Assembly: GCF_000217795.1 (NCBI RefSeq)
Contig: NC_015681.1
Coordinates: 62,001 to 126,000, forward strand
Length of the DNA stretch: 64,000 bases
Reading direction: 5' to 3'
Origin: Thermodesulfatator indicus DSM 15286
GTDB lineage: Bacteria > Desulfobacterota > Thermodesulfobacteria > Thermodesulfobacteriales > Thermodesulfatatoraceae
A program made the translations under genes and the position numbers. Every line of letters starts with the position of its first letter. The stretch's first letter is position 1. This document shows, one piece after another, positions 12,100 through 53,876 of this stretch. The notes under the pieces are model-generated. The model worked only from the letters and a program-made list of their open reading frames with translations. It was not told the origin of the DNA and did not search any database.

Positions 12100-12330
12100 G
12101 TATATTGTCGCCTATTTAAATAACCTAAATAAGGTCATTAAACAGATGATAATTGCATCGTCATTGCGAGCGGAGCGAAGCAATCTCAAAATTGCTCCTG
12201 ATATTACTTCGTCGGTCCTCGCGGACCTCCTCGTAATAACAGAGAAAGAGTCAGTTAGCCTCGTCCACTGCGGAACCTTTGTGATAACGCTTTGTCGTAT
12301 AAAAAACGCTCGGATTAATATCAACAACAA
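12100..12330. repeat. Dispersed extragenic repeat, copy 1
   Basis: This fills most of the 355-base gap before the MgtC gene. It carries the core GTCATTGCGAGCG..GCGAAGCAATCTC (from about 12161), a Cys/Gly-codon-like GC stretch (TCGGTCCTCGCGGACCTCCTCG), and the terminal block AAAAAACGCTCGGATTAATA (about 12301) that recurs at 52659. The start (ATTGTCGCCTATTTA, about 12107) is the reverse complement of a block at 35051 and 52530. Open frames across it are not convincing genes. Confidence 0.8.
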
Positions 12331-20353: not shown

Positions 20354-21322
20354 ATGAAAAATTTATCTTTTCTTGGGGTGGATGTGGCCAAGGATACATT
20401 GGTTATTTTTGATGGCCAGAAGGTTTACGAGTTTCAAAATGAAAGGGGTTTAAAGAAATTTAAGAGGAAGTTTTTTAAGAAGAAAGAAGACAGGAAGAAA
20501 AGGGTGGTGATATACGAGCCCACAGGGCCATATTCGGCATTTCTGGAGGAGTTCTGTGCTACGAATATGATAAAAGTAGTATCCCTTAACCCCAGAAAAG
20601 TCCCCCGTTTAAGAGAAGTATTAGGTCATAGAGCAAAAACAGATAATCTTGATGCGAAACTGTTATACGAATATCACAAGATAGTTAGCGAAGAAGAGAT
20701 CAAAGAAATAGAATATAACGAAAATTTAGAGAAATTATCTTTATTGTTAAGTGAGTATCAATTATATCAAAATATAGAAAACAAGTTATCTAATTTTCTA
20801 GAGTATTTAGATAGAGTACCAGTAGATAGTAAAGAAAGCAAAAAACACATACAGAAAAACTTAGAAGAAACAAGGCAGAGGCTTCAGAAGATAAAGAAAG
20901 AGATGGAGGAATTAGTAAATAAAGATGACGACATAAACAGAGGGGTTAGAGAAATAGAGAAAGTTAAAGGAATAGGGAAGATGATAGCGACATATTGTTA
21001 CATCTTTTTTCGGAAGAGGCGGATAAGAAACCGGCGGGAGGTAGTAGCTCTAGCAGGATTGGACCCGGAAGTAAAGGAATCTGGTAAGAGGAAGCTGGTA
21101 ACTAGGATAAGCAAGAAAGGGGATAATAGGTTAAGGAGTTTGCTTTTTATGGGGGCGCTTAGTGCCATAAGATGTAAAGAAGGGGGACTAAAAGAGTATT
21201 ACGAAAGTTTGATAAAGAGAGGAAAACCGAAGAAAGTGGCCATAATAGCCTGTGCCAGAAAATTATTGATATTTGCTTTCTATAATTACAAAAAATGGCA
21301 AATGGAAGCTCAAAGTGCTTGA
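20354..21322 (+). CDS. IS110-family transposase (DEDD recombinase)
   Basis: This is a 322-residue recombinase. The amino-terminal RuvC-like domain shows the acidic residues in FLGVDVAKD, IYEPTGP and AKTDNLDAK. A coiled-coil middle is followed by the Transposase_20 domain (EKVKGIGKMIATYCYIFF, ALAGLDPEV.ESGKRK, GDNRLRSLLFMGALSA) with its conserved Ser region replaced by GALSA. It appears intact. Codon use is more A/G-rich than its neighbours. It follows the structured leader by 40 bases. Confidence 0.95.
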   Translation: MKNLSFLGVDVAKDTLVIFDGQKVYEFQNERGLKKFKRKFFKKKEDRKKRVVIYEPTGPYSAFLEEFCATNMIKVVSLNPRKVPRLREVLGHRAKTDNLDAKLLYEYHKIVSEEEIKEIEYNENLEKLSLLLSEYQLYQNIENKLSNFLEYLDRVPVDSKESKKHIQKNLEETRQRLQKIKKEMEELVNKDDDINRGVREIEKVKGIGKMIATYCYIFFRKRRIRNRREVVALAGLDPEVKESGKRKLVTRISKKGDNRLRSLLFMGALSAIRCKEGGLKEYYESLIKRGKPKKVAIIACARKLLIFAFYNYKKWQMEAQSA

Positions 21323-33296: not shown

Positions 33297-33490
33297 CTCA
33301 TAAAAATTTTTTGTTTAGATCGTTTATAAATTAATAAAAAATTTGTTTTTTGCAAGTTTGTTACACAAATTTTATGAGCGGCTAAAAATAAAAATCACTG
33401 ATTATGATATTTTGAATATTTAAATTATTATTTTTTTAGTTTTTGCATCATATTTCGGCAGAAATAAAATTTAAATTCCCTCTGAATACT

Positions 33491-33556
33491 ACAACCGTAT
33501 TTACGGTGGTTGTTAATATTAACCTCCATGCCCCAAAGGGGCACAACGAAGGCATG
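33491..33556 (+). other. Structured leader of the second IS110-type element
   Basis: This contains a hairpin 33491-33496 with 33508-33513 (an alternative pairing is 33494-33499 with 33502-33507), and a 6-bp hairpin 33529-33534 with 33538-33543. An alternative 6-bp pairing reaches 33551-33556. It could be part of the element's guide RNA or a translation-control leader. Confidence 0.4.
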
Positions 33557-33628
33557 AAAACATTGAAAAGAGAGGAGCCATGGATATTTTGTTGCTTCAA
33601 AAAGTCTTTAAAAAGGAGGTATATACCC

Positions 33629-34882
33629 ATGGCTCCTGAAAAAGAAAATAACCAGGTTTTAAGAATTATTCATCCCATTTGTTGTGGCCTTGACGTTCAT
33701 AAGCGTTTCGTCTCAGCATGTATCCTAAAGACTCTTCCTGATGGTTCTATAGAAGTCGAAGTTCGAGAATTTGAAACTTTTACCGACGATCTTATAGCCC
33801 TGAGAGAATGGCTGATCGAAAAAGATTGTCCCATTGTAGCCATGGAAAGCACAGGTGTTTACTGGCAGCCTATACACAATATTTTAGAAGGCTATGTGGA
33901 AGTGATCTTAGTCAATGCCAGGCATATCAAAAATGTCCCTGGACGAAAGACGGATGTCTCAGACAGCCGCTGGTTAGCAGAATTACTTCGTGTAGGTCTG
34001 CTACGGGCAAGTTATATTCCCCCAAAACAAGTTCGTTTCTGGAGAGAGCTAGTACGACTTAGACAGAAACATGTCAAAACGCTTGCTGATTATAAGAAAA
34101 GAGTTCAAAAGCTTTTTGAATCAGCAAATATTAAGCTAGACAATGTAGTTTCAGATTTGTTTGGGGAAACAGGTCGTCAAATCATGAGATTACTTTTAGA
34201 GACCCCCAAGCCTAGCCTTGAAGAAGTTAGGGCTTGTGCTAAAGGGAAACTTAAGAAGAAAGTAGAAGAGCTCTATCGCTCTATTTGTGGCTTTTTCGAA
34301 GAGCATCATCGTTTTCTTTTGCATTCGCTCTTAAGTATAATAGAGACTCTGGAAAAAGAGATAGGGATTATGGATATAAGGATCAAGGAAGTAATGAGAC
34401 ACCATGAAGATTTAATAGAGAGATTAAAAGGGATACCAGGAGTAAGTGAAGTTTCAGCGCGAGCTATTTTGGCAGAAGTAGGGCCGGATCTGAGAAGTTT
34501 TCCAAATGAGAGGGCGCTAGCCAGTTGGGCAGGAGTTTGTCCAGGGAATAACGAAAGTGGAGGAAAGAGGATTAGCGGCAAGAGCCCGGTAAAGAAACAT
34601 CCTTTAAGAAGCGTTTTGATAGAGGTGTCTTGGGCGGCCACGAGGAAGAAAGGGACATATTATGCGGCAAAATATAGGCAACTTCGTGCTCGTCGAGGGC
34701 CTAAGAAAGCCATAGGGGCCATAGCGCATAAGATATTGAAAGCGGTGTATTTTATCATCAAAGAGGGTCAGGAATACAGGGAATTAGGGGCAAATCATCT
34801 GAAGCAGATAAATAGGGAGAGATTATTGACAAAAATAAAAGAAGAAGCAGAAAGACTTGGGTATAAAGTGGTAGCGGCATAA
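33629..34882 (+). CDS. IS110/IS1111-type transposase (DEDD recombinase)
   Basis: This is a 417-residue recombinase. RuvC-like residues lie in CCGLDVHKRFVSACIL, IVAMESTGVYW and VPGRKTDVSDSRWLAELL. The carboxy-terminal Transposase_20 domain has LKGIPGVSEVSARAILAEVG, LASWAGVCPGNNESGGKR and SVLIEVSWAATR. The true start is ATG 33629, after AAGGAGG; the frame can be read upstream but without a ribosome site. It appears full-length and intact. It is not closely similar to the other IS110 transposase here. Confidence 0.95.
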   Translation: MAPEKENNQVLRIIHPICCGLDVHKRFVSACILKTLPDGSIEVEVREFETFTDDLIALREWLIEKDCPIVAMESTGVYWQPIHNILEGYVEVILVNARHIKNVPGRKTDVSDSRWLAELLRVGLLRASYIPPKQVRFWRELVRLRQKHVKTLADYKKRVQKLFESANIKLDNVVSDLFGETGRQIMRLLLETPKPSLEEVRACAKGKLKKKVEELYRSICGFFEEHHRFLLHSLLSIIETLEKEIGIMDIRIKEVMRHHEDLIERLKGIPGVSEVSARAILAEVGPDLRSFPNERALASWAGVCPGNNESGGKRISGKSPVKKHPLRSVLIEVSWAATRKKGTYYAAKYRQLRARRGPKKAIGAIAHKILKAVYFIIKEGQEYRELGANHLKQINRERLLTKIKEEAERLGYKVVAA

Positions 34883-40044: not shown

Positions 40045-41049
40045 CTAAGGTTCTCGCTTAAGTGAAAATCTTGGGTCAATAAAAGTTTTCAGATACTCTA
40101 TCACCATCTTAGCGGGAAAAGTAGGAAACGCCTTTTTAAGGGCCAGCAAACAGGAAGTACAGGCTGTGGCCAGGTAACGGGGCTTACTCTTTTCAATCTC
40201 TTTAAAAAGGGGCCGCCTTATTTGCTCGGCCTTTTTGGAGAAAAGATAACCAAAAGCCCCTGCCTGGCCGCAACAGCCTTCATAGTAGAGAAGGCCTAAA
40301 TCTCGCCACCAAGGGAAGGTGTCTAAATTTTTCAAATGACAGGGCACCTGAAAAAAAATGTCTTCTTTAGGCACACTAAACTCTAAATCCTGATTTTTAG
40401 CCAGATAGGCCATGGCGTCCAGAGTTTTGGCTGATATCCCATCGTCTCCGGTGAACGCGGGATAAATTTTTTTAAGAGTAAAAAGGCAGGAAGCACAAAG
40501 GGTTATAATAAGCTCAGCCTGCTTAAAGGCCTTAAGGTTTGTTTCTAAGTGTTCTTTAAAGGCCTTCTCATCACCTGCCGCCAGGAAAGGAAGCCCGCAA
40601 CAGGTTTGTTCTTGAGGCACAAACAGGTCAGCAGGCCGTGGACATAAACTTATTAAGTGCTTTATGGCCTGTGGATAAAGAAGCTCACCACCACAGCCGA
40701 GAAAAATAGCTATTTTCTTTCCCTTTAAAGAAACTAGTTCTTTTTTAATAGAAAACCTTTCCGAGGCTATTGGCTTTAATTTATCAGCCGCGGCCAGCAA
40801 ATATCGCGTAGGTATGGGATGAGCTAACTTGGCCTTAACCAGTGTTTCCAGAAGGGGAACATTATTAGGGCAGGTCTTCTCACAGGCACCGCACAAAAGA
40901 CAGCTAGCCCAAAAACTAAAAGAGGCCTTCTTCTCCTCGAGGGCCATTAGCCTTCCCCTGGGAGAAAAGGTCTCGCGTCTGGTGGCCTTAAACACAGGAC
41001 AGGCCACCAGGCATTTACCACAACGGGCACAAAGCTCAGTTGGTTTCAT
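40045..41049 (-). CDS. Fe-S oxidoreductase with two 4Fe-4S and CCG domains (GlcF/LutA-like)
   Basis: This is a 334-residue cytoplasmic or membrane-peripheral electron carrier. Residues ~7-60 bind two [4Fe-4S] clusters (CARCGKCLVACPVF, CLLCGACEKTCP). Two CCG domains follow (EQTCCGLPF, a carboxy-terminal CHLKNL and EGCCGQAG). This layout is typical of glycolate/lactate oxidase iron-sulfur subunits and HdrD-like proteins. It starts at ATG 41049, overlapping the HD-domain gene stop by 14 bp. No FAD oxidase subunit is adjacent, so the donor is unknown. Confidence 0.88.
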   Translation of the reverse strand: MKPTELCARCGKCLVACPVFKATRRETFSPRGRLMALEEKKASFSFWASCLLCGACEKTCPNNVPLLETLVKAKLAHPIPTRYLLAAADKLKPIASERFSIKKELVSLKGKKIAIFLGCGGELLYPQAIKHLISLCPRPADLFVPQEQTCCGLPFLAAGDEKAFKEHLETNLKAFKQAELIITLCASCLFTLKKIYPAFTGDDGISAKTLDAMAYLAKNQDLEFSVPKEDIFFQVPCHLKNLDTFPWWRDLGLLYYEGCCGQAGAFGYLFSKKAEQIRRPLFKEIEKSKPRYLATACTSCLLALKKAFPTFPAKMVIEYLKTFIDPRFSLKREP

Positions 41050-41608
41050 CTTTGGCCACAAATTGGTCAAGCCACCAGGAGGCCCAATCTGTTTCGGTAA
41101 TGGCCTCTGCAAGTTTACGGCCAATATCGGTACGAAGCCTTCTTTTGGCGTAAACCAGCCAGCGGCGGGCGTAAGGGTTTCCCAGGTCATGCTGCTCCTT
41201 GAGCATAACCATGAGGTCTAGCTGGTCGGCATCATGGACTAGTTGGGCCTCAAGGGTCTTGGCCTCGCGGTATTCTCTTAAAAGCTCCTGCCATTCTTCC
41301 TCCCAAGGAAGACCAGAGAAGGCATCGTTAGCCGCGGCCTCTTCGTCAACTCTGTCATAGAGTTTGTTTACCGAATTGAGGTCCCCGGTGCGTGCCTCTA
41401 AAAAATCATGCAAAATGGCCATCTTAAGCAGTTTAGTTTCGTCAACTTCTGGAACGAGCTTGGCAAGCATCATAGCGGCCAAGGAAACACCAAAGGAATG
41501 GGCCGCTATGTTCTCTTTGCCTGTCCCCAAATAGGCATATCCCGTGCGTTCAAGGCGTTTCAACATAGCTCCTTCAAAGAGGAGCTTGGCTAACCTGTGC
41601 CAAAACAT
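41036..41608 (-). CDS. HD-domain phosphohydrolase (YfbR-like)
   Basis: This is a 190-residue HD superfamily protein. The metal-binding motif is spread as ENIAAHSFGVSLAA, AILHDFLEARTGDLN and VHDADQLD. YfbR relatives are 5'-deoxynucleotidases. It lies upstream of, and overlaps, the Fe-S oxidoreductase gene, which may reflect coupling rather than shared function. Confidence 0.85.
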   Translation of the reverse strand: MFWHRLAKLLFEGAMLKRLERTGYAYLGTGKENIAAHSFGVSLAAMMLAKLVPEVDETKLLKMAILHDFLEARTGDLNSVNKLYDRVDEEAAANDAFSGLPWEEEWQELLREYREAKTLEAQLVHDADQLDLMVMLKEQHDLGNPYARRWLVYAKRRLRTDIGRKLAEAITETDWASWWLDQFVAKDETN

Positions 41609-41644
41609 ATTTCCTCCTAATCGGTTGCTGAAAAATTCTATTTT

Positions 41645-41790
41645 GGAGATCTTTACAAAATGCTATACTTTAGAGACTGCTTCGCCCATACGGGCTCGCA
41701 GTGACACCCTAAAGGAGTCATGGCGAGGCTGCGTCAACAGCCGAAGCAATCCCTGTCACGAGGCACCAATGCCGCCGTGGTGATCTATTT
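41645..41790. repeat. Dispersed extragenic repeat, copy 5
   Basis: This begins with the end module (GGAGATCTTTACAAAATG..AGAGACTGCTTCGCC, 41645-41686). CGGGCTCGCAGTGACACC, GAGTCATGGCGAGG and CCGAAGCAATCCC follow. The GAGTCATGG part (41715-41723) is identical to nine bases of the candidate bridge RNA at 20170-20178. Confidence 0.8.
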
Positions 41791-41875
41791 ATGTTTTTTA
41801 AATTTTACAGACGTCTCTCTATTCTGAATAGTAAACTCAATATATTCAAGAGGGAAATAAATTAGCGAGGTGCTT

Positions 41876-42793
41876 ATGACTTTACGTGAACGATATACCG
41901 GTTGCCTTTTGGGGCTGGCCGTGGGAGACGCCTTAGGGGCTCCTCTTGAGTTCCAGGCAAGAGACCTCTTTGAGCCTGTCACGGACATGATTGGCGGAGG
42001 CCCACATTTCCTTGAACCCGGACAGTGGACAGACGATACCTCCATGGCCCTTTGTCTGGCCGAAAGCCTTATTGAAAAAGGCGGCTTTGACCCTCACGAC
42101 CAGATGGAACGTTACTGCCGTTGGTACGAGGAAGGATATTTGAGCAGCACAGGGGTGTGCTTTGACATAGGAAATACGGTTAAAAAGGCCCTTGAAAAGT
42201 TTCGCCAAACCGGAAACCCCTTTGCCGGCTCAAAAGACCCCTGGTCTGCTGGTAACGGCTGCATTATGCGGCTGGCTCCAGTGCCTATGTTTTTCTACCC
42301 GGACATAGAAAAGGCCGAATGGTACGCCCAGGAAAGCGCCAGAACCACCCACGGAGCCCAAGAATGCCTGGACGCCGCGCGTCTTTTTGCTCGAATGCTG
42401 ATAAGAGCTCTTGCCGGGAAGCCCAAAGAAGAAATCCTTCTTGCTGATAGCGAAAATTTTGAAGCCAGTCCCAAAATTCTTGATATAGCCAGAGGTGCCT
42501 ATTTTGAAAAAGAAGAATACGAAATAAGAGGCACGGGATACGTGGTAGAAAGCCTTGAAGCCGCTCTCTGGTGTTTCTGGCAAAGTGAGTCCTTTGAAGA
42601 GGCTGTTTTAATGGCCATTAATCTTGGTGATGACGCAGATACCACCGGTGCCGTGTGCGGGCAGATTGCTGGTGCCTATTACGGCGAGAAGGCCATCCCT
42701 GAAAGATGGCTTAAAAAGCTTACCATGGCCGAAAAAATCAGAAATACAGCCTTAAAACTCCTTGAAGCTGCTACAAGAAGAAGTGAAAAGTGA
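41876..42793 (+). CDS. ADP-ribosylglycohydrolase family protein
   Basis: This is a 305-residue DraG-like hydrolase that removes ADP-ribose from proteins or small molecules. The binuclear-metal motifs are WTDDTSMALCLAESL and NLGDDADTTGAVCGQIAGAYYG, with the usual start GCLLGLAVGDALGAPLEF. GAGGTG lies before ATG 41876; a GTG start two codons earlier is possible. No nitrogenase genes or DraT partner are in the window, so the target is unknown. Confidence 0.92.
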   Translation: MTLRERYTGCLLGLAVGDALGAPLEFQARDLFEPVTDMIGGGPHFLEPGQWTDDTSMALCLAESLIEKGGFDPHDQMERYCRWYEEGYLSSTGVCFDIGNTVKKALEKFRQTGNPFAGSKDPWSAGNGCIMRLAPVPMFFYPDIEKAEWYAQESARTTHGAQECLDAARLFARMLIRALAGKPKEEILLADSENFEASPKILDIARGAYFEKEEYEIRGTGYVVESLEAALWCFWQSESFEEAVLMAINLGDDADTTGAVCGQIAGAYYGEKAIPERWLKKLTMAEKIRNTALKLLEAATRRSEK

Positions 42794-42817
42794 AAAGTGA
42801 AAGGTGAAAGGTGAGAA
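42783..42817. repeat. Tandem 7-bp repeat (GTGAAAA/GTGAAAG)
   Basis: Five adjacent 7-base units (two GTGAAAA, two GTGAAAG, one GTGAGAA) overlap the stop codon of the ADP-ribosylglycohydrolase gene. Related single units occur near 47226. Confidence 0.85.
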
Positions 42818-42884
42818 GGCGTGTAAGGCCAACGAGGTAATCTCCTGAGAGGCGAAGCCGTCTCAAACAGCTAAGCAAGTCTCC

Positions 42885-45800
42885 TCACTCCTTACTTTCT
42901 TCTGGTAAGCCTAGGAGGCAGGCGGCTATCATCTTTTCTACCGGGTCTTTGGTCTTCACGTTTGCCAAAAGGCTCTTTAGTTCTTCTGTGGTCAGAGGGT
43001 TTTCTCGCAAGTATGTTTTCAGGTCTTTTAGGAGAAAAGGGCCTCTTTTCTGGGTCGTTTTTATGAATTCCTGAAGTTTTGGCACCAGAAGCTCAAGGCA
43101 CAGGCGGGAGAAGTGATAGAGGTCAAGGTTTTCTTCGCGGTAGTTTTCAATCAAATAAAGAAGGCGCGCCACCACGGCCCTTCTTTCGTGGCCCCTATCC
43201 CTGCGGTGGTAATACCTTAAAATTTCTTGGAAGACCTTTAAAGCCCGCTTATGTCTGGCCGGCAATAGTAAAAATTCTGCCCTTTTGAGGTCTTCAAGAA
43301 AGCTCTGCAAAAGCTCATCAGCCCCTTTTAACCAGGGGATAGAAGCCTCGTCAGGGGTTAAATTCTCTCGTAGTTTCTGACAAATTTCTGAAATATCAGT
43401 TATCGGTTCTTTCCCTTTTTCAAGGAAAACCCATGAAGGCGCGGTATTAGCCTTCTTTGAACCTTTGAGACACAAAAAGCACCACGGCCTTTTGGCCTTT
43501 ACCGCGCTAACCAACGAACCCTTTATCTTGAGGCCCTTTATCTCTCTAAAAGTCTTTTCAGGTACTAATGGGTTTTCACCTTCCATAAGTTTTTTGACCG
43601 GTTGAAAGGCATCAGCCAGCCCGTCCCAAAAACTGGCCTCAAATTCCTTTCTTTTTTGTTCAAAAAGCTCAAGCATCATGCGCCCGGTAATCTTTTCTTC
43701 CTGATAGCCCTGGGCGTATTCCAGAAACTCTTCAGGGATGTTGATATTGCTTCCCAGTATGTTTTCCACTAGCAGGTGGCGCTCAACAAGACGCCTGTCA
43801 GTGGAAACACAGAATTCTTGCGAGTCATTTGGCCAGTAAATTTCAACTTCTTCGTGAGGGCTATCAAGGCGCTCAATACGGCCGATGCGTTGCTCAGCAA
43901 GCCTTATAACCGAAGGTAGATCAAAAAACACCACCGCTCCTGCCTGCTGAAGGTTTACACCTTCAGCCACCGCGTCAGAACAAAGGGCAAGCACATTCTT
44001 GGCCGGCGACCCCAGAGAAAAGAAGCGCTTAAGGAGGCGTCTTTCCTTTGGCCTTCCCCCGGTAACGAAAAGTATCTTTATCTCCGGGTCAAGCCTCTTT
44101 ACAAGGCCTTCCAGATAGGCCAGCGTGATTAAACGGCTGTCATAAGCCAGAATAAGTTTGTGTTTTTTGAAAAGCTCAAGTACAAAGCGGGCCTTGGTTT
44201 CTTCGCGAGCAGGGGATATTTCCCGACAAAGACTGGCTATCCGGCCATAGATTTTCATCTCCTGGTCAAGGGCCTCAAGAAAGGCCTCTTTGCTTTTAAG
44301 CCAGAGAGGCGCTTCAGCAGTCTCCGGCAAAGGCCTGAAAAGCTCCTTGGCTTTAAGCTTCCAGTCAGCCAGGGCACTTAGAATGTCGCCAGTGGCGTGC
44401 TTGAACTTGCCGCTAAGCCCAAAGGCCCTTTGGGCGGCTTCAGTGCCTTCAATGTGCTCCACGAGAGCCACTCTTGAGGAGCGCAGCATGGCCTTGACAT
44501 TAAACCGGGCCAGGGCCGGGGCTGCAGAAAGCCTTTTACTTAAAAAATTAGCGTCAAAGGCGTTTTCGTTTTGCCAGAGATCAAAGATAGTTTTTCGCAA
44601 CCAGACAAGGCCTTTGAGTTCCCGCGAAAGCTCGTCAATCTTAAGAGCTAACTCGCGGTCGCGTTGGGTTTCTCCTGTAGGGTAAAGTTTGCTAATTTCT
44701 TTCGGGAAACGGCAGAGACGCCCAAATTTGTCACGATATTCCTCTGGTTTTTCTTCAATGAGACGGTTTAACTCCTGTTTGGTGCGCCGCACGGTAAAGA
44801 GCTGAACATAACGCCTAAGCTTTTCCAGCTGATCACGAGAAAATTTCCCGGTGGTTTCAATCTCACGTCTTAGTTTCTGATAGGTCTCAAGGCCCTCTTC
44901 AGAAAGGTTATCAAGGCCAAGGACTTCCATTAAACGCAGGAGGTCTTCCACGCCGCGATTTATGGGCGTGGCGGTCATGAGGATTACGTGTTCAGCCAGG
45001 CTGTTTAACTGGATACTCTGCGAACGCCTGGAAGTACGGGAAAGGTAATTATGGGCTTCGTCGATGAGGAGGATATTGGCCCGCCTAATCTTTTCAAGGG
45101 CACGGCTTCTGGCCTCACCGTGTGACACACTTAATAGCCCCTGAGAAATGGCCTCTGGCACAAAGGGAATGTCTTCGCTTAAAGCCTCTTCTTCCCACTG
45201 GTCTTTAACACCAGGTGGGCAGATTACGTAGCTTGAAAGGCGTCTTAACTCCTGCCGGGAAAGAAACCTGAAACTTAGCGCCGTAAGCACCGCAAGCCCT
45301 ACTTTGGTCTTCCCGGCGCCGGTGGGGTCAGCAATGAGCACACTTCCGTGGTTATCAAGCACCCATAGGGCCTGAGCCACGGCCTGCCGCTGGGAAGGCC
45401 AAAGCTTTAGCCTGGCAAGCACCCGGCTTAAACCCTCGTGCTGAGTAAGCCATTCGTCGCCCATTATCTGGCAAATGGCATAGGCCAGCACCTCCTGCCA
45501 GCTTACGTAGCGCAAAAGCTGCTCTAGAAGGGCTATTATCTCCTCCTGGTAATCCTGACTGTCTTTAACAAAGTTTGAGACAATAAGCTTTAAGTCTTCG
45601 TAGCGTGGGTCTGTGGCTGAGAGGCGAATATTGGCCTCTTTTTGAAAAACAAAGCCAGCCCGGGAAAAATTGCTTGAGCCCAAAATAGCATGGGTATCTC
45701 CCAGATAGACCTTGGCGTGAAGCTCTCGGCCCAGGCGAAAGACAATATTTCTCGCCTTTAACTCTTCGAGAAAATTGAGAAGAGCACCACTAAGGGTTAC

Positions 45801-46133
45801 AGAGATACCCTTTTCAAGCCAGTATTCCTTTATCTCCTGAGAGAGGTTAACTTTGGGCCAGGGAGCCTTTAACTGCTCTTCAGGGAGATCAAGCTCGTGG
45901 CCTAACACCACGGTAATCTTGCGGTTAGGGAAATGACCCTCGCCAAAGAACGAAATAAGGTATTCAAGAGAAGAATAGCCGGTAACGATGGTATAGCGAC
46001 TTGAAGAGAGAATATCTTCACGGACAATGTTTTCTATTTTTTGATAAGGAGTATTCAAGGGAAAAAATTCTACCGATGGCCAGACACGCTCTTCAACGCG
46101 CTCAAAAATAGAAATCTGTTTTAGTTTTTCCAT
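42885..46133 (-). CDS. PLD-nuclease/SNF2 helicase fusion (possible defence protein)
   Basis: This is a 1082-residue cytoplasmic protein. Residues ~1-200 hold a phospholipase-D-like domain with the HxK motif and Asn/Ser block (ELHAKVYLG, ILGSSNFSRAG, ~141-160). Residues ~235-450 are a SNF2/DEAD helicase core (ADPTGAGKTKVG Walker A ~268, LLIDEAHNYLS ~356, TATPINRG ~388). The helicase C part is near 640-790 (AEGVNLQQAGAVVFFDLP, EQRIGRIERL). The last ~280 residues are helical with two CxxC-like cysteines (CFLC). Such PLD-SNF2 fusions are typical of defence islands or nucleic-acid surveillance. It is single here, with no methylase partner identified. Confidence 0.88.
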   Translation of the reverse strand: MEKLKQISIFERVEERVWPSVEFFPLNTPYQKIENIVREDILSSSRYTIVTGYSSLEYLISFFGEGHFPNRKITVVLGHELDLPEEQLKAPWPKVNLSQEIKEYWLEKGISVTLSGALLNFLEELKARNIVFRLGRELHAKVYLGDTHAILGSSNFSRAGFVFQKEANIRLSATDPRYEDLKLIVSNFVKDSQDYQEEIIALLEQLLRYVSWQEVLAYAICQIMGDEWLTQHEGLSRVLARLKLWPSQRQAVAQALWVLDNHGSVLIADPTGAGKTKVGLAVLTALSFRFLSRQELRRLSSYVICPPGVKDQWEEEALSEDIPFVPEAISQGLLSVSHGEARSRALEKIRRANILLIDEAHNYLSRTSRRSQSIQLNSLAEHVILMTATPINRGVEDLLRLMEVLGLDNLSEEGLETYQKLRREIETTGKFSRDQLEKLRRYVQLFTVRRTKQELNRLIEEKPEEYRDKFGRLCRFPKEISKLYPTGETQRDRELALKIDELSRELKGLVWLRKTIFDLWQNENAFDANFLSKRLSAAPALARFNVKAMLRSSRVALVEHIEGTEAAQRAFGLSGKFKHATGDILSALADWKLKAKELFRPLPETAEAPLWLKSKEAFLEALDQEMKIYGRIASLCREISPAREETKARFVLELFKKHKLILAYDSRLITLAYLEGLVKRLDPEIKILFVTGGRPKERRLLKRFFSLGSPAKNVLALCSDAVAEGVNLQQAGAVVFFDLPSVIRLAEQRIGRIERLDSPHEEVEIYWPNDSQEFCVSTDRRLVERHLLVENILGSNINIPEEFLEYAQGYQEEKITGRMMLELFEQKRKEFEASFWDGLADAFQPVKKLMEGENPLVPEKTFREIKGLKIKGSLVSAVKAKRPWCFLCLKGSKKANTAPSWVFLEKGKEPITDISEICQKLRENLTPDEASIPWLKGADELLQSFLEDLKRAEFLLLPARHKRALKVFQEILRYYHRRDRGHERRAVVARLLYLIENYREENLDLYHFSRLCLELLVPKLQEFIKTTQKRGPFLLKDLKTYLRENPLTTEELKSLLANVKTKDPVEKMIAACLLGLPEESKE

Positions 46134-46340
46134 GTTGTAAAGAGATCTTTGCCGGAGGTTTTACTTAAAAGCTGCTTCGCCCGTACGACAAATAAGGTTT
46201 CCATAAATTTTTACCTGGTTCACAATCTCTCTTTACCTTACAATGCCTTAGCAAAGAGGCCAATAGCTGAGAATTTCCCGTTATTAGCCCTGAGATATCA
46301 AAAGTGCATTTTAAGGAAAACGAGATTTAAATTATAAAAC

Positions 46341-47132
46341 ATGAGTTACAAATGGAATCCTGAAGAATATCGCATTAGCTCTTCGAATCAAAAAAGATGG
46401 GGTCAAGAACTACTTTCAAAAATTGATTTTAAAGGCGATGAAAAAGTTTTAGATATTGGTTGCGGAGACGGAGAAATAACAGCCCTTATTGCCCAGAGAG
46501 TTCCCAAAGGATTTGTTGTAGGAATTGATAGCTCAAAAGATATGATAAACATGGCTAAGAAAAATTTTTTGTCAAAAGAATATCCAAATCTCAGTTTTTT
46601 GGTAAAAGATGTAAGAGAAATCACTTTTGAGAAGGAATTTGATATCGTATTTTCAAATGCTTGTCTACATTGGGTAATAGATCACCTTTCTGTCCTTAAA
46701 AGAATAAAAACAAGTTTAAAACCTTCTGGAAAAATCTTTTTTCAAATGGGTGGTAAGGGAAATGCAGAAGAAATTATAAAGGTCTTAGAAAATATTATAA
46801 GACAACCAAAGTGGTCTAAATTTTTTAAAAATTTCTCATTTCCTTATGGTTTTTATAGCCCTAAAGAATACAGTAAATGGCTAAAGATAGCTGGCTTTAA
46901 ACCAAAAAGGATTGAGCTATTAACAAAAGATATGATTCATCAAGACGAGAAAACTTTTGCTTCATGGCTCCTCTCTACCTGGCTTCCTTACCTCCAAAGA
47001 ATTCCTGAAAATAATAGAGAAGAGTTTATAAGCGAGGTGATAAAAAGATATCTTGAAAAACACCCTCAAGACAAAAACGGGTGTATTCATGTTCAAATGG
47101 TAAGATTAGAAGTCGAAGCCGAAATACACTAA
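46341..47132 (+). CDS. Class I SAM-dependent methyltransferase (trans-aconitate-methyltransferase-like)
   Basis: This is a 263-residue enzyme with a Rossmann-type SAM fold: VLDIGCGDGEITALIAQRVP (motif I), VGIDSSKDMINMAKKNF and FDIVFSNACLHWVIDHLS. The substrate is unknown; Tam/BioC-type carboxyl methylation is one possibility. The gene is clearly more AT-rich (for example AAATTTTTTAAAAATTTC) than most neighbours, which suggests recent transfer or low expression. A Lys-rich carboxy-terminal tail follows. Confidence 0.85.
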   Translation: MSYKWNPEEYRISSSNQKRWGQELLSKIDFKGDEKVLDIGCGDGEITALIAQRVPKGFVVGIDSSKDMINMAKKNFLSKEYPNLSFLVKDVREITFEKEFDIVFSNACLHWVIDHLSVLKRIKTSLKPSGKIFFQMGGKGNAEEIIKVLENIIRQPKWSKFFKNFSFPYGFYSPKEYSKWLKIAGFKPKRIELLTKDMIHQDEKTFASWLLSTWLPYLQRIPENNREEFISEVIKRYLEKHPQDKNGCIHVQMVRLEVEAEIH

Positions 47133-47169
47133 AAGGCCATAAAAACATGTAACCACCATAATCCTGCTT

Positions 47170-47339
47170 AAACATTGGTGGCTTAGCCACCTGCCATCGA
47201 CCAACTGCCATTTAGCAAGTTAAGTGAGAAGTGAAAAGTTTTAGTACTATCAGCTATCCACCATTAGCCATTTACCATTTAGTTACTGCGAGCCCGACAG
47301 GGCGAAGCAGTCTCTTAAGTAACATTTTGCAGAGGTCTC
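47170..47339. repeat. Dispersed extragenic repeat, copy 6
   Basis: This contains a 6-bp hairpin 47177-47182/47186-47191, a simple CCATTAGCCATTTACCATTT stretch, ACTGCGAGCCCGACAGG, and the end module (GCGAAGCAGTCTCTTAAG..CATTTTGCAGAGGTCTC, 47302-47339). It fills the 300-base gap before the tandem A/B array. Confidence 0.75.
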
Positions 47340-47367
47340 GTCTCTAATAAAATTAAATAGGTATTTC

Positions 47368-47396
47368 TTGACAAAGTGTGAAAAGATAAGTATTTA
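47368..47396 (+). promoter_or_regulatory. Promoter of gene A1
   Basis: TTGACA (47368-47373), a 17-base spacer and TATTTA (47391-47396) form a near-consensus sigma-70 promoter. The spacer and -10 region are spanned by a 7-bp inverted repeat (TGTGAAA..TTTCACA), which could be an operator. The block is identical in front of A2 and A3. Confidence 0.85.
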
Positions 47397-47437
47397 TTTC
47401 ACAATTTTGCTCCTAGCGGAACTTGAGGGAAGACACA

Positions 47438-47989
47438 ATGGCATATGAACATTGGAAAAAATTCGTTGTTGGGTCTTTGGTAGGTGCTGTTGCATTTGCA
47501 AGTGCTTACATCTTGCCTGCTAAAAAGGCAAGGGCTGAAGACAGGATATTTGCTGCGGTTAGCTTTCCGTTAAGCAGGGATTTCCTTAAAGGTGCAAGGG
47601 TTGAAGGCGGCTTTGCGCATCTTGATGACAACACAGGTTACAGTGCTGAACTATTCGTAGCACCTTTTCAGAAAACAATCGGAGTAGGTGCTGACTTATA
47701 CGCTGGAACAGAAGACCTTGGCGGCTCTTTAGGTGCAGAACTTGGCTACAACATACCAAACCATAGCATTCAAGAAGCACTAAGGGCAAGAATTGAAGCT
47801 CTCAAAGGAGCAACAAACCTCGGCGTTAGATTACCTTTAGACGGCATTAAGCCAAAGCTTTCCGGGTTAGAACTTACCATAGGTGGTGGCACTCAAAAAT
47901 GGGTTGAAGATAAAAAAGAAGACCCTGCTACTACAAGCAGCAGCAATTCTGCTACTCCTACTGGCCCACCTATTAGTGGCGATTTTTAA
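47438..47989 (+). CDS. Secreted small protein A1 (tandem array, unknown family)
   Basis: This is a 183-residue protein with a signal peptide (residues ~1-33, FVVGSLVGAVAFASAYILPA, ending ARA). The mature part has alternating strand-like pieces (VFAAVSFPLSR, EGGFAHLDDNTGYSAELFVAP, GVGADLYAGTEDLGGSLGAELGY, LELTIGGGTQKWVED). It ends in a Ser/Thr/Pro tail of about 24 residues. It may be a surface or small beta-rich protein. ATG 47438 follows GAGGGAAG; a TTG 5 codons earlier is part of the ribosome site. It is nearly identical to A2 and A3 except in the tail. I do not recognise the family. Confidence 0.85.
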   Translation: MAYEHWKKFVVGSLVGAVAFASAYILPAKKARAEDRIFAAVSFPLSRDFLKGARVEGGFAHLDDNTGYSAELFVAPFQKTIGVGADLYAGTEDLGGSLGAELGYNIPNHSIQEALRARIEALKGATNLGVRLPLDGIKPKLSGLELTIGGGTQKWVEDKKEDPATTSSSNSATPTGPPISGDF

Positions 47990-48099
47990 ACTCTCTCTCC
48001 TTTAATCCCTCCTTATTTCACTTCCTTTTAATCTCTTTTAATTTCATCTCTTTCGAATAATAAAAAACATTTAAATTAAAGTGGCTTGCCTGCATAGGT

Positions 48100-49485
48100 A
48101 TGGCAACCTTAAGAAACCTGTGGGCAAGTTTATTTCTCGTGCTCTTCCTGTTTGGCTTGGCCAACGGAGCCGGTGTAGAATATTATCGTGACCTCAGTTA
48201 CACTTACCAAGTATACAGGACGGATAGCACTTACACAAACATACAAGGCTCTGATCTCCTGGCTCAAGGAACGAGTTCTTATAAAAATACTCCCGGCATC
48301 CCTCAACACTGGTGGGCTTTTGTAGGAACGGATGTAGGAAATAACTATGGTTACGGTATAATATTCTTTGAACCAAACGACGAAAACCATCTATTACTAA
48401 AAACTTGGATTGACTTTAAACCTGTTGATTATAACACCACCGTAAACGCCGACTTCCCTAAACACTACCGCCAATCTGATCCCACACACCAATACGAACT
48501 CCCCGCAGGTGCCAAATGCCAAGCAACATACATCTCTCACAACTATAACGATGCCACCAAAACACTCTCCGTCACCATACAAAACAACCTAAACCCATTA
48601 CAAACCATCAGCGGCATCCCAATAAAATACAACGGCGTCGAGCTCCACAAAGCAAGCTACTTGCCCCCCGCTCTGGCCGAAACCCTCAAAAAAAACTACT
48701 ACACCAAATACTTCGCATACCTAAAACTAACCTCAACCACAGGCTCACCCTACAAAGACCTCTACATCTTACCCCAAGAGCTCCAAAAAGACAGCTCCGG
48801 CAAACTCAAAACCTACTCCTACCCAAACAACCTATACCCTAACCCAACCACCCTAAAATCCGAACTAGACGACTCCGACACCCTCTCAAACGGCGACTAC
48901 CTCTACTACAACGGCAGAGAATACCCCAGCTGGTATAACTCAAACCCTCTCTACTATTACTACTCATTCATCGGCGCACTAAGTTCTGCCAACAAAATCG
49001 ACACCTCAAATTACAACATCCCTTCCATAGGAGCCATGGAAGCTTACCCCTATATGACCCTAAAACCCGGCCAAAACACCCTAACCTTCAACCTCACCCC
49101 AATCTACAACACACTCCAAAAAGCAGGAATATTTGGCACCTGGACCGCAACACTCTACCTAATCCCTATTGACGGAAAATGCGACCTAAACGAAAATAAC
49201 CAGCTCAACACCAACGACGCCATAACAACCACCCACGCACTCACCTACCAACTAAACGCCATCAACATCATCCCCGACACAACAAACATAGGCACAGAAC
49301 TAGTAGACACCCACGCCATGCACAGATTCCGCCACTGCCGCTGGAACACGCTTTCCCACGAACTAGAACTCTCCGACCACACAACTATCCCCTTACCCAC
49401 CATCACTCCTAAAATAACACTAATAGAAAAAATCAACGGCATAACAATCACCAAAAAAACCATCCCAATAAACCCTGTCTTCTGA
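48100..49485 (+). CDS. Secreted protein B1 (tandem array, unknown family, dockerin-like loop)
   Basis: This is a 461-residue protein with a signal peptide (residues ~1-23, LWASLFLVLFLFGLANG). Residues ~24-110 differ between B1 and B2; the remaining ~350 are almost identical. It is rich in Tyr, Asn and Thr with YYYYSF-like stretches. Near residues ~360-375 lies DLNENNQLNTND, an EF-hand/dockerin-type calcium loop pattern. Three Cys occur (AKCQ, GKCDL, RHCRW). From about codon 105 on, the coding strand is extremely C-rich and G-poor. The gap after A1 has no own promoter, so it is probably co-transcribed with A1. The function is unknown. Confidence 0.85.
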   Translation: MATLRNLWASLFLVLFLFGLANGAGVEYYRDLSYTYQVYRTDSTYTNIQGSDLLAQGTSSYKNTPGIPQHWWAFVGTDVGNNYGYGIIFFEPNDENHLLLKTWIDFKPVDYNTTVNADFPKHYRQSDPTHQYELPAGAKCQATYISHNYNDATKTLSVTIQNNLNPLQTISGIPIKYNGVELHKASYLPPALAETLKKNYYTKYFAYLKLTSTTGSPYKDLYILPQELQKDSSGKLKTYSYPNNLYPNPTTLKSELDDSDTLSNGDYLYYNGREYPSWYNSNPLYYYYSFIGALSSANKIDTSNYNIPSIGAMEAYPYMTLKPGQNTLTFNLTPIYNTLQKAGIFGTWTATLYLIPIDGKCDLNENNQLNTNDAITTTHALTYQLNAINIIPDTTNIGTELVDTHAMHRFRHCRWNTLSHELELSDHTTIPLPTITPKITLIEKINGITITKKTIPINPVF

Positions 49486-49577
49486 AAGAAACGAAGTCCA
49501 GGGGTATACTACCTATGTGGCTCTCTCTTACCCTTGAGGGAAAAATCCTGGCCCCCTAACACTCCAACAAATATTTC

Positions 49578-49606
49578 TTGACAAAGTGTGAAAAGATAAG
49601 TATTTA
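49578..49606 (+). promoter_or_regulatory. Promoter of gene A2
   Basis: TTGACA 49578-49583 and TATTTA 49601-49606 with a 17-base spacer. It is identical to the A1 and A3 promoters, including the TGTGAAA..TTTCACA inverted repeat. Confidence 0.85.
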
Positions 49607-49647
49607 TTTCACAATTTTGCTCCTAGCGGAACCTGAGGGAAGACGCA

Positions 49648-50199
49648 ATGGCATATGAGCATTGGAAAAAATTCGTTGTTGGGTCTTTGGTAGGTGCTGT
49701 TGCATTTGCAAGTGCTTACATCTTGCCTGCTAAAAAGGCGAGGGCTGAAGACAGGATATTTGCTGCGGTTAGCTTTCCGTTAAGCAGGGATTTCCTTAAA
49801 GGTGCAAGGGTTGAAGGCGGCTTTGCGCATCTTGATGACAACACAGGTTACAGTGCTGAACTATTCGTAGCACCTTTTCAGAAAACAATCGGTGTAGGTG
49901 CTGACTTATACGCTGGAACAGAAGACCTTGGCGGCTCTTTAGGTGCAGAACTTGGCTACAACATACCAAACCACAGCATTCAAGAAGCACTAAGGGCAAG
50001 AATTGAAGCTCTCAAAGGAGCAACAAACCTCGGCGTTAGATTACCTTTAGACGGCATTAAGCCAAAGCTTTCCGGGTTAGAGCTTACCATAGGCGGTGGC
50101 ACTCAAAAATGGGTTGAAGACAAAAAAGAAGACCCTGCTACTACTACAAGCAGCAGTAACACTTCCACCCCTACTACCCCTCCTGGTGGGCTTGATTAA
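49648..50199 (+). CDS. Secreted small protein A2 (tandem array)
   Basis: This is a 183-residue copy of A1. The signal peptide and mature body are the same, with silent and few amino-acid changes. The tail after KKEDPATT is different: TSSSNTSTPTTPPGGLD instead of the SSNSATPTGPPISGDF of A1. ATG 49648 is preceded by GAGGGAAG. Confidence 0.85.
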   Translation: MAYEHWKKFVVGSLVGAVAFASAYILPAKKARAEDRIFAAVSFPLSRDFLKGARVEGGFAHLDDNTGYSAELFVAPFQKTIGVGADLYAGTEDLGGSLGAELGYNIPNHSIQEALRARIEALKGATNLGVRLPLDGIKPKLSGLELTIGGGTQKWVEDKKEDPATTTSSSNTSTPTTPPGGLD

Positions 50200-50309
50200 A
50201 CTTTCTTTCCTTTAATCCCTCCTTGTTTCACTTCCTTTTAATCTCTTTTAATTTCATCTCTTTTGAATAATAAAAAACATTTAAATTAAAACAGCTTGCC
50301 TGCATAGTT

Positions 50310-51719
50310 ATGGCAACCTTAAGAAACCTGTGGGCAAGTTTATTTCTCGTGCTCTTCCTATTTGGCTTGGCCAACGGAGCAGGTATGGAATTTTATTTTG
50401 AACCTGATTACACTTATCAAGTATATAGGACGGATAGCACTTACACAGACATACAAAGCTCTGATCTCCTGGCTCAAGGAACGAGTTCTTATCAAGATAG
50501 CCTTCCTTCCGGCATTACCCAACACTGGATGGCTTCTATAGGAACGGATGTAGGAAGTAACTATGGTTACGGTAGAATATTCTTTGAACCAAACGATGAA
50601 AACCATCTATTACTAAAAAGTTGGATAAACTTTGACCCTAATGCTTACAATGGCTATCCTGATCAAACCTATACCGTAAACGCCGACTTCCCCAAACACT
50701 ACCGCCAATCTGATCCCACACACCATTACGAACTCCCCGCAGGAGCCAAATGCCAAGCAACATACATCTCTGACAACTATAACGATGCCACCAAAACACT
50801 CTCCGTCACCATACAAAACAACCTAAACCCATTACAAACCATCAGCGGCATCCCAATAAAATACAACGGTGTCGAGCTCCACAAAGCAAGCTACTTGCCC
50901 CCTGCTCTGGCCGAAACCCTCAAAAAAAACTACTACACCAAATACTTCGCATACCTAAAACTAACCTCAACCACAGGCTCACCCTACAAAGACCTCTACA
51001 TCTTACCCCAAGAGCTCCAAAAAGACAGCTCCGGCAAACTCAAAACCTACTCCTACCCAAACAACCTATACCCTAACCCAACCACCCTAAAATCCGAACT
51101 AGACGACTCCGACACCCTCTCAAACGGCGACTACCTCTACTACAACGGCAGAGAATACCCCAGCTGGTATAACTCAAACCCTCTCTACTATTACTACTCA
51201 TTCGTCGGCGCACTAAGTTCTGCCAGCAAAATCGACACCTCAAATTACAACATCCCTTCCATAGGAGCCATGAAAGCTTACCCCTATATAACCCTAAAAC
51301 CCGGCCAAAACACCCTAACCTTCAACCTCACCCCAATCTACAACACACTCCAAAAAGCAGGAATATTTGGCACCTGGACCGCAACACTCTACCTAATCCC
51401 TATTGACGGAAAATGCGACCTAAACGAAAATAACCAGCTCAACACCAACGACGCCATAACAACCACCCACGCACTCACCTACCAACTAAACGCCATCAAC
51501 ATCATCCCCGACATAACAAACACAAGCACAGAAATAGTAGATACCAACGCCATGCACAGATTCCGCCACTGCCGCTGGAACACGCTCTCCCACGAACTAG
51601 AACTCTCCGACCACACAACTATCCCCTTACCCACCATCACTCCTAAAATAACACTAATAGAAAAAATCAACGGCATAACAATCACCAAAAAAACCATCCC
51701 AATAAACCCCGTCTTCTGA
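50310..51719 (+). CDS. Secreted protein B2 (tandem array)
   Basis: This is a 469-residue copy of B1. The signal peptide is identical. Residues ~25-118 contain many substitutions and two small insertions (MEFYFEPDYTYQVY, SYQDSLPSGITQHWMASIG, the NGYPDQTYT segment), while the rest is nearly identical, including the calcium-loop-like DLNENNQLNTND. The C-rich composition begins after the variable part. It lies 110 bp downstream of A2. Confidence 0.85.
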   Translation: MATLRNLWASLFLVLFLFGLANGAGMEFYFEPDYTYQVYRTDSTYTDIQSSDLLAQGTSSYQDSLPSGITQHWMASIGTDVGSNYGYGRIFFEPNDENHLLLKSWINFDPNAYNGYPDQTYTVNADFPKHYRQSDPTHHYELPAGAKCQATYISDNYNDATKTLSVTIQNNLNPLQTISGIPIKYNGVELHKASYLPPALAETLKKNYYTKYFAYLKLTSTTGSPYKDLYILPQELQKDSSGKLKTYSYPNNLYPNPTTLKSELDDSDTLSNGDYLYYNGREYPSWYNSNPLYYYYSFVGALSSASKIDTSNYNIPSIGAMKAYPYITLKPGQNTLTFNLTPIYNTLQKAGIFGTWTATLYLIPIDGKCDLNENNQLNTNDAITTTHALTYQLNAINIIPDITNTSTEIVDTNAMHRFRHCRWNTLSHELELSDHTTIPLPTITPKITLIEKINGITITKKTIPINPVF

Positions 51720-51811
51720 AAGAAACGAAGTCCAGGGGTATACTACCTATGTGGCTCTCTCTTACCCTTGAGGGAAAAATCCTGGCCCCCTAACACTCCA
51801 ACAAATATTTC

Positions 51812-51840
51812 TTGACAAAGTGTGAAAAGATAAGTATTTA
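51812..51840 (+). promoter_or_regulatory. Promoter of gene A3
   Basis: TTGACA 51812-51817 and TATTTA 51835-51840 with a 17-base spacer. It is identical to the A1 and A2 promoters. Confidence 0.85.
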
Positions 51841-51881
51841 TTTCACAATTTTGCTCCTCGTGGAACCTGAGGGAAGACGCA

Positions 51882-52436
51882 ATGGCATATGAGCATTGGA
51901 AAAAATTCGTTGTTGGGTCTTTGGTAGGTGCTGTTGCATTTGCAAGTGCTTACATGTTGCCTGCTAAAAAGGCGAGGGCTGAAGACAGGGTATTTGCTGC
52001 GGTTAGCTTTCCCTTAAGCAGGGGTTTCCTTAAAGGTGCAAGGGTTGAAGGCGGCTTTGCGCATCTTGATGACAACACAGGTTACAGTGCTGAACTATTC
52101 GTAGCACCTTTTCAGAAAACAATCGGTGTAGGTGCTGACTTATACGCTGGAACAGAAGACCTTGGCGGCTCTTTAGGTGCAGAACTTGGCTACAACATAC
52201 CAAATCACAGCATTCAAGAAGCACTAAGGGCAAGAATTGAAGCTCTCAAAGGAGCAACAAACCTCGGCGTTAGATTACCTTTAGACGGCATTAAGCCAAA
52301 GCTTTCCGGGTTAGAGCTTACCATAGGTGGTGGCACTCAAAAATGGGTTGAAGACAAAAAAGAAGACCCTGCTGCTACTACAAACAGCAGCAACTCTGCT
52401 ACTCCTACTGGCCCACCTATTGGTTGGGATGATTAA
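51882..52436 (+). CDS. Secreted small protein A3 (tandem array)
   Basis: This is a 184-residue third copy of A. It differs from A1/A2 at a few sites (YMLPAKK, DRVFAA, SRGFLKG) and in the tail (AATTNSSNSATPTGPPIGWDD). It keeps the promoter, signal peptide and ribosome site. No intact B gene follows; a dispersed repeat (from 52511) and a B remnant lie downstream. Confidence 0.85.
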   Translation: MAYEHWKKFVVGSLVGAVAFASAYMLPAKKARAEDRVFAAVSFPLSRGFLKGARVEGGFAHLDDNTGYSAELFVAPFQKTIGVGADLYAGTEDLGGSLGAELGYNIPNHSIQEALRARIEALKGATNLGVRLPLDGIKPKLSGLELTIGGGTQKWVEDKKEDPAATTNSSNSATPTGPPIGWDD

Positions 52437-52510
52437 ACTCTCTTTCCTTTAATCCCTCCTTGTTTCACTTCTTTTTAATCTCTTTTAATTTTATCTCTCT
52501 CGAATAATAA

Positions 52511-52684
52511 TGAGGTATAATGAGGTCACTAAATAGGCGGCAATTGAGTCATTGCGAGCGCAGCGAAGCAATCCCTGAGACTGCTTCGATCTCTAATGAG
52601 GCCTTGCTGTGACAGCGAGGGTTGCTTTGCTTTAGCGATTATGTCAGCGGCGATACTTTGTCGTGTAAAAAACGCTCGGATTAA
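52511..52684. repeat. Dispersed extragenic repeat, copy 7 (inside the array end)
   Basis: GGTCACTAAATAGGCGGCA then ATTGAGTCATTGCGAGCG (about 52522-52561), GCGAAGCAATCCC, and the end block AAAAAACGCTCGGATTAATA (about 52664-52684) match copies at 12100-12330 and 35040. It separates A3 from the B remnant exactly where homology to units 1 and 2 stops. Confidence 0.85.
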
Positions 52685-52726
52685 TATAGGAACTGATGTA
52701 GGGGGTAACACTGGTTACGGTAGAAT
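52685..52726 (+). pseudogene. Remnant of a third B gene
   Basis: The 42 bases resemble the B2 segment at about 50537-50577 (B residues ~76-89, reading IGTDVGGNTGYGRI) at about 85% by eye. A stop codon (TAG) follows directly. Start, signal peptide and the large conserved body are missing. This shows that the array once continued. Confidence 0.7.
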
Positions 52727-52784
52727 TTAGGTATAAATTCAAAGTTAGGTTAAAATAATAAGCTAAATTGCCAAAGGAGTTTTT

Positions 52785-53876
52785 ATGCCAGGAAATACTT
52801 TGGGCCAGGCCTTTAGGATTACCACTTTTGGTGAGTCACACGGAAGGGCCCTAGGCGTAGTAATAGATGGCTGTCCGCCAGGGCTTGAACTTGACGAAGC
52901 TTACATCCAGGAAGAACTTGATAAACGTCGCCCTGGAAAGGCCTTAGGTGAGACACCTCGCAAGGAAAAAGACCGTGTTCACCTGCTTTCAGGTGTTTTT
53001 GAAGGTCGCACCACCGGTACACCCATTGCCCTCCTAATTTATAACGAAGACGCCCGCTCTAGCGCCTACGAAACCATAAAAGACATTTTTAGACCAGGCC
53101 ACGGAGACTGTACTTATTTCTGGAAATACGGATTGCGTGACTGGCGTGGAGGAGGACGCTCAAGCGGGAGAGAAACCGCTGCCCGCGTAGCCGCAGGGGC
53201 CGTAGCCAAACGATTGCTTGAAACCTGGAACATAGAAGTCCACGCCTATACTGTGGCCTTAGGCGGGGTTAAGGCCAGTAAAAGAGACCTATCTTTTATT
53301 TACCAAAATCGCCTTTTTTGCCCGGACCCAGAAGCTCTCTCCAAAATGGAAGAACGTATAAAAGAAATTAGAGCCAAGGGAGACTCTATAGGCGGCGTTG
53401 TGGAAATTGTGGCTCAGGGAGTGCCTGCAGGTTTAGGCGAGCCTGTTTTTGACAAACTAGATGCAGACTTGGCTAAGGCCCTTATGAGTATCGGCGCGGT
53501 AAAAGGCGTAGAAATTGGCGCCGGTTTTGCCGCGGCTGAACTCCTGGGCTCAGAAAATAATGACGAAATTACGCCACACGGTTTTAAAACCAATAACGCC
53601 GGAGGAATTCTTGCCGGCATCTCAAACGGAGATGAAATCATCTGCCGCGTGGCGGTAAAGCCCATACCCAGTATTAGCAAAGAACAGGAAACCGTAGATG
53701 AAAGATTAAACCCGAGAAAAATAAAAATTGGTGGCCGCCATGATGCCTCAGCTATCCCTCGCATTGTGCCTGTCTGCCAGGCCATGGTACGCCTGGTCCT
53801 GGCTGACCACCTACTACGGCAGCTAAGCCTCTCCCCTTTTACCAAATGGACTAAATACCCTTTCTCTGAAAAATAA
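52785..53876 (+). CDS. aroC: Chorismate synthase
   Basis: This is a 363-residue FMN-dependent enzyme that turns EPSP into chorismate, the last shikimate step. Motifs: [84 protein letters not shown], and RHDAS in the carboxy end. AAAGGAG precedes ATG. It starts 350 bp after the array. Confidence 0.97.

Follow-up and report, generated by a model that had tools for sequence, protein, structure and literature searches.

Layout of the A–B array and its promoters

Thermodesulfatator indicus is a thermophilic vent sulfate reducer. Its genome is a single contig of 2,322,224 bases (99.9% completeness), of which the window, the whole 64,000-nt stretch analysed here, covers bases 62001–126000. Positions 47362–52726 of the window contain two complete units of two genes, A and B, followed by a third A gene and what is left of a third B gene, 42 bp. 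Direct repeats of 300 nt, carrying the promoter and A sequence, begin at 47362, 49572, and 51806, with spacings of 2,210 and 2,234 bp and 97–99% identity, and the remainder of the A–B unit is spanned by additional repeat families. The repeats and the open reading frames (ORFs) confirm the A-B-A-B-A-remnant order given by the initial annotation of this DNA. Its count of three 2.2-kb copies holds for the promoters and the A genes, but only two units are full and the third is partial. The array is flanked by a putative methyltransferase gene (46341–47132) and the chorismate synthase gene aroC (52785–53876), and its features are as follows.

47362–47437, + strand: promoter and leader of unit 1; −35 element TTGACA at 47368, inverted repeat TGTGAAA-N13-TTTCACA at 47377–47403, Shine-Dalgarno-like GAGGGAAG before A1
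47438–47989, + strand: A1, 183 aa, predicted exported small protein with an S/T/P tail (ORF, alignment)
47990–48099, + strand: A1–B1 spacer, first half pyrimidine-rich, unstructured, no clear Shine-Dalgarno sequence before B1
48100–49485, + strand: B1, 461 aa, predicted exported larger protein (ORF, alignment)
48175–48438, + strand: variable N-terminal domain of B1, residues 26–113, base composition host-like
48439–49485, + strand: constant body of B1, A+C 0.73, third-position G 0.03, dockerin-like loop DLNENNQLNTND at residues 362–373
49486–49571, + strand: spacer after B1, same sequence as the spacer after B2, no T-run terminator found
49572–49647, + strand: promoter and leader of unit 2 (repeats, shared core, inverted repeat)
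49648–50199, + strand: A2, 183 aa (ORF)
50310–51719, + strand: B2, 469 aa; variable domain 50385–50672, constant A+C-rich body 50673–51719
51806–51881, + strand: promoter and leader of unit 3 (repeats, shared core, inverted repeat)
51882–52436, + strand: A3, 184 aa (ORF)
52685–52726, + strand: 42-nt remnant of the variable domain of a third B (repeat comparison, 88% identity)

The remnant translates to IGTDVGGNTGYGRI followed by a stop codon, consistent with a third variable-domain allele of B. Behind each A gene lies a pyrimidine-rich, almost G-free stretch (47990–48055, 50200–50265, and 52437–52500). A short palindromic intergenic element, GCGAGCGNAGCGAAGCAATC, occurs in near-identical copies at 12166–12185 and 52554–52573, the second of which is positioned between A3 and the B remnant.

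Among the sister species compared, the closest one (AroC 93% identical) carries different genes upstream of aroC (the region corresponding to 41000–52785), and we therefore judge that the locus of the array has been rearranged. A large SNF2-type helicase is encoded near the array (42885–46133, − strand), with a weak PLD-like match at its N-terminus and a weak likeness to the defence-system helicases DpdE and DrmD (PADLOC). Elsewhere in the window are two IS110-type transposase genes (20354–21322 and 33443–34882) and a gene (7221–7868, − strand) for an exported protein with a PEP-CTERM-like C-terminal motif, VPEPASIILVGLALSILGFLGLKAK, recognised by eye, which adjoins an alkaline-phosphatase-like gene.

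The three promoters share the same 42-nt core, where no such match is expected by chance. The −35 element is a perfect TTGACA, and the −10 element at a spacing of 17 bp is TATTTA, matching three of six positions. An identical strong promoter with an inverted repeat had been proposed for the three copies. The core and the repeat are indeed common to all of them, but the strength is doubtful, with a −10 element matching at only half of its positions and the array promoter absent from the listing of a consensus promoter scan. In the whole 2.32-Mb genome, TGTGAAA-N13-TTTCACA occurs only in the three array promoters, which suggests that the inverted repeat overlapping the promoter is the site for a dedicated regulator.

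Proteins A and B

Both A and B are predicted to be exported, as their N-termini are signal-peptide-like when judged by eye, in agreement with the secretion initially proposed for them. Mature A has an alternating hydrophobic, beta-type amphipathic pattern (z = 3.7) and ends in a low-complexity, slippage-prone S/T/P repeat. A would be a small exported beta-rich protein, possibly associated with the outer membrane.

B is a two-part mosaic of a variable N-terminal domain and a constant body. A frame artefact is ruled out, since the other forward frames contain 31 and 18–21 stops. The body presents a loop with the pattern D-x-N-x-N-N-x-L-N-x-x-D at residues 362–373 of B1 and 370–381 of B2, with a helix-like stretch behind it. 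Dockerin-type calcium loops are part of a duplicated loop-helix as a family feature. The loop of B, like them, is followed by a helix-like stretch; unlike them, it is present in a single copy, and the Pfam dockerin profile does not recognise the loop fragment at E-values up to 10. A generic EF-hand-like pattern arises in 1% of shuffles, and a stricter pattern, chosen post hoc from the sequence, arises in 0 of 20,000. The constant module may bind calcium. One B fragment gives a sub-threshold match to a binary-toxin calcium domain of Pfam (E 0.054, 14.1 bits, cut-off 25).

A and B are orphans in everything searched. The whole proteins match no Pfam family at E-values up to 1, and their fragments give only chance-level scores; in particular, Pfam recognises in neither protein a domain of two-partner secretion or of a known outer-membrane barrel family, nor a lipoprotein, sortase, or other outer-membrane signature. 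Searches of NCBIfam, PHROGs, and PADLOC give no match, and sequence matches in the PDB (e.g., albumin and beta-secretase) have chance-level scores and were rejected. The initial statement that no described system contains these two proteins therefore stands.

Relatives of A or B are absent from 98 related genomes, including seven of the same genus, and from ~394–395 other genomes of the phylum, on which the profile search suggested at the outset was carried out. Pattern scans for A and B in 85,000 species genomes and in viral contigs, a method that reaches close relatives only, found none, and tblastn found no relative in plasmids (A and B) or phages (B only). Three weak matches were discarded: the reading frame of L008 looks like an FAD-type oxidoreductase, and stop codons interrupt the frame of L006 and L010, both of them short. 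As the closest species lack both genes, the function of A and B would be dispensable in the genus. Structure prediction, also suggested at the outset, was performed with AlphaFold for A and B, but the models, which rested on only two or three near-identical sequences, have pLDDT of 34 and 32 and are too poor for use.

Divergence between copies

The copies are near-identical over most of their length. The differences amount to 2–4 of 76 nt in the promoter and leader, 6–11 of 489 nt in the A body (1–2%), 8 of 110 nt in the A–B spacer, 2 of 75 nt in the B signal peptide, 18 of 1047 nt in the B body (1.7%), and 0 of 86 nt in the post-B spacer. The A tail differs at 7–19 of ~60 nt (up to 32%), and the B variable domain (residues 26–113 of B1 and 26–121 of B2) differs at 39 of 264 nt (15%), with 24 gap positions in addition. 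This part-by-part comparison bears out the earlier description of near-identical bodies with diverging A tails and B amino-terminal regions.

The array had been read as a system under selection for variation or dosage. The copies are amplified, and dosage is a possible driver of the amplification. Selection for variation is only partly borne out, because the segments rich in protein differences are also rich in synonymous ones. In the comparison of B1 with B2, residues 26–125 have 10.5 synonymous differences over 56.7 sites (ps 0.185) and 30.5 nonsynonymous differences over 219 sites (pn 0.139), which gives a pn/ps of 0.75; for residues 126–400, ps is 0.022 and pn is 0.009. The synonymous excess is significant for B residues 26–125 over the rest of B (Fisher p = 5e-4) and for the A tail (p = 1e-3). 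Since synonymous differences also rise, selection at the protein level would be insufficient by itself, and older divergence spared by patchy recombinational homogenisation offers a simpler account of the variable segments, one that needs no strong positive selection. Mild diversifying selection may add to the divergence. A diversity-generating retroelement, which would substitute at adenines and leave no indels, was rejected as the source of the variable domain: 22 of the 39 differences involve A, C/T differences are as common as A/G differences, and 24 nt lie in indels.

Bacterial antigen-variation loci (reviewed in PMC4534519) are tandem arrays of paralogous surface-protein genes that recombine between copies. 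The A–B array resembles them in its tandem copies, its near-identical frames around variable segments, and its uneven synonymous divergence. In contrast to them, each full A–B copy has its own promoter and silent cassettes are absent, the only promoterless piece being the 42-nt remnant. A and B are also unrelated to known families, and they belong to a free-living thermophile with no known host.

Base composition of B and the origin of the array

The strongest anomaly of the locus, overlooked by the initial annotation, is that the B body is extremely rich in A+C. Its third codon positions have frequencies of A 0.32, C 0.57, G 0.03, and T 0.08. The maximum-likelihood change point is at codon 111 in B1 and codon 121 in B2, where the variable domain of the respective copy ends. 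The boundary between the variable and constant parts thus coincides with the composition break. Over 1,044 nt of the B body, A+C is 0.735, which lies 8 sd from the host and compares with a maximum of 0.611 in ~435,000 other windows, the host background being 20 sampled stretches (~400 kb) together with the 64-kb window. At third positions, A+C is 0.89 in the B body versus no more than 0.64 in any gene of the twenty sampled stretches. A, the N-terminus of B, and the spacers have a host-like composition. Strand asymmetry of the mitochondrial type makes third positions rich in A and C and nearly G-free. The third positions of the B body are likewise A/C-rich with almost no G, but here the asymmetry is confined to one module within a bacterial gene of otherwise ordinary composition.

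Two explanations of the bias were rejected. Translational codon selection in the host does not account for it, as the codons preferred in ribosomal proteins and EF-Tu end in T or G. The recent differences between the copies, mostly ordinary transitions of both kinds, give no sign of strand-biased mutation still at work; the bias therefore seems to be an old one. Three causes remain for the composition break: capture of the body from a strand-asymmetric replicon, selection for an unstructured, G-poor mRNA, and a long Rho-loading tract. CCA, ACC, and CAC are enriched 2.4–3.7-fold on the coding strand. Given the DNA-sequence preference of RecA (PMC3763553), one idea is that the TG-rich complementary strand might favour RecA filaments and hence gene conversion.

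We prefer, tentatively and at somewhat less than an even chance, to read the array as a cell-surface cassette specific to this lineage, whose tandem copies arose through unequal recombination. Array anatomy, uneven synonymous divergence, the beta pattern of A, the loop of B, and the match between domain boundary and change point are all consistent with this reading. Against it, Pfam recognises no outer-membrane, lipoprotein, sortase, or two-partner-secretion signature, and the closest species lack both genes. The surface role is deduced from features of the sequence, because neither protein has a homologue with an established function or a structure model good enough to use; export, calcium binding, the surface location, the partnership of A and B, an adhesive or ligand-binding role, and gene conversion as the homogeniser are what we infer from these features. 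Each unit would be driven by a separate promoter, overlapped by the inverted repeat as its operator. A, exported and beta-rich with a disordered S/T/P tail, would help to anchor or export B, and B would display its variable N-terminal domain on the constant C-terminal module in a surface or extracellular complex. Recombination between copies would prevent the promoter, the signal peptides, and the bodies of A and B from diverging, and older differences would survive in the A tail and the N-terminal domain of B, giving at least two B variants per cell. Duplication would in addition raise the dose.

A rather unlikely alternative, though the strongest of those considered, is that the array derives from a mobile or foreign element, a B body from a virus or plasmid with extreme strand asymmetry having been fused behind an N-terminal domain of host-like composition; the anomaly would then be a mark of origin with no function of its own. 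The distance of the body from the ~435,000 host windows, its departure from the codon use of ribosomal proteins and EF-Tu, and the rearranged locus upstream of aroC argue for such an origin, and the lack of ongoing strand bias in recent copy differences is as expected for an inherited bias. However, viral contigs, phages (searched for B), plasmids, and genome contigs contain no relative, the host-like composition extends over A, the B N-terminus, and the spacers, and no integrase or transposase gene adjoins the array.

Selection on the B body at the RNA level appears improbable. Rho prefers unstructured, C-rich, G-poor RNA (PMC6407284), and the body would form a long coding tract of this kind that loads Rho when translation lags, making the expression of B depend on translation. 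In line with this, the predicted folding energy of B-body RNA is −29.6 kcal/mol per 300 nt versus −47.9 ± 3.9 for the same protein in host codons, the two B bodies account for 827 of the 926 windows across the 64 kb whose C/G is 4 or more, no clear Shine-Dalgarno sequence precedes B, and the genome encodes Rho. With similarly low probability, the body would be held poor in G and U across 1 kb to keep its mRNA unstructured and C-rich, and Rho-aborted transcription of B would let each unit yield either A alone or A plus B, the nucleotide sequence being a selected regulatory element across the whole domain. The body is like a rut site in being C-rich, G-poor, and poorly folding in a genome that has Rho. 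In contrast to rut sites, which are ribosome-free and need just 70–80 nt (PMC6407284), it is ~1,050 nt of open coding sequence, and selection across 1 kb that includes the amino-acid make-up would be unusual.

It is also improbable that A and B form a pair of the effector/immunity or toxin/antitoxin type whose amplification was driven by an arms race. A tandem two-gene cassette with paralogous variation is what such a pair could look like, but A and B both look like exported proteins, B varies at its N-terminus rather than in a C-terminal toxin domain, one A persists without B, and neither PADLOC nor Pfam gives a match. An assembly artefact with a different true number of units is very improbable: near-identical tandem units can be miscounted and these copies are 97–99% identical over long stretches, but they differ consistently at many sites, have distinct variable domains and a distinct remnant, and lie in a single-contig genome.

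As an amplified surface cassette, the array is of a common kind; the switch in composition limited to one module is its unusual part. Tandem orphan surface genes alone are common, and the interest of the locus comes mainly from the composition anomaly. If our preferred reading is correct, a thermophilic bacterium would have a surface system built from two protein families to which no relative is known, and the abrupt composition switch within one open frame would reflect either domain capture from a strongly asymmetric replicon or sequence-level selection on a coding mRNA.
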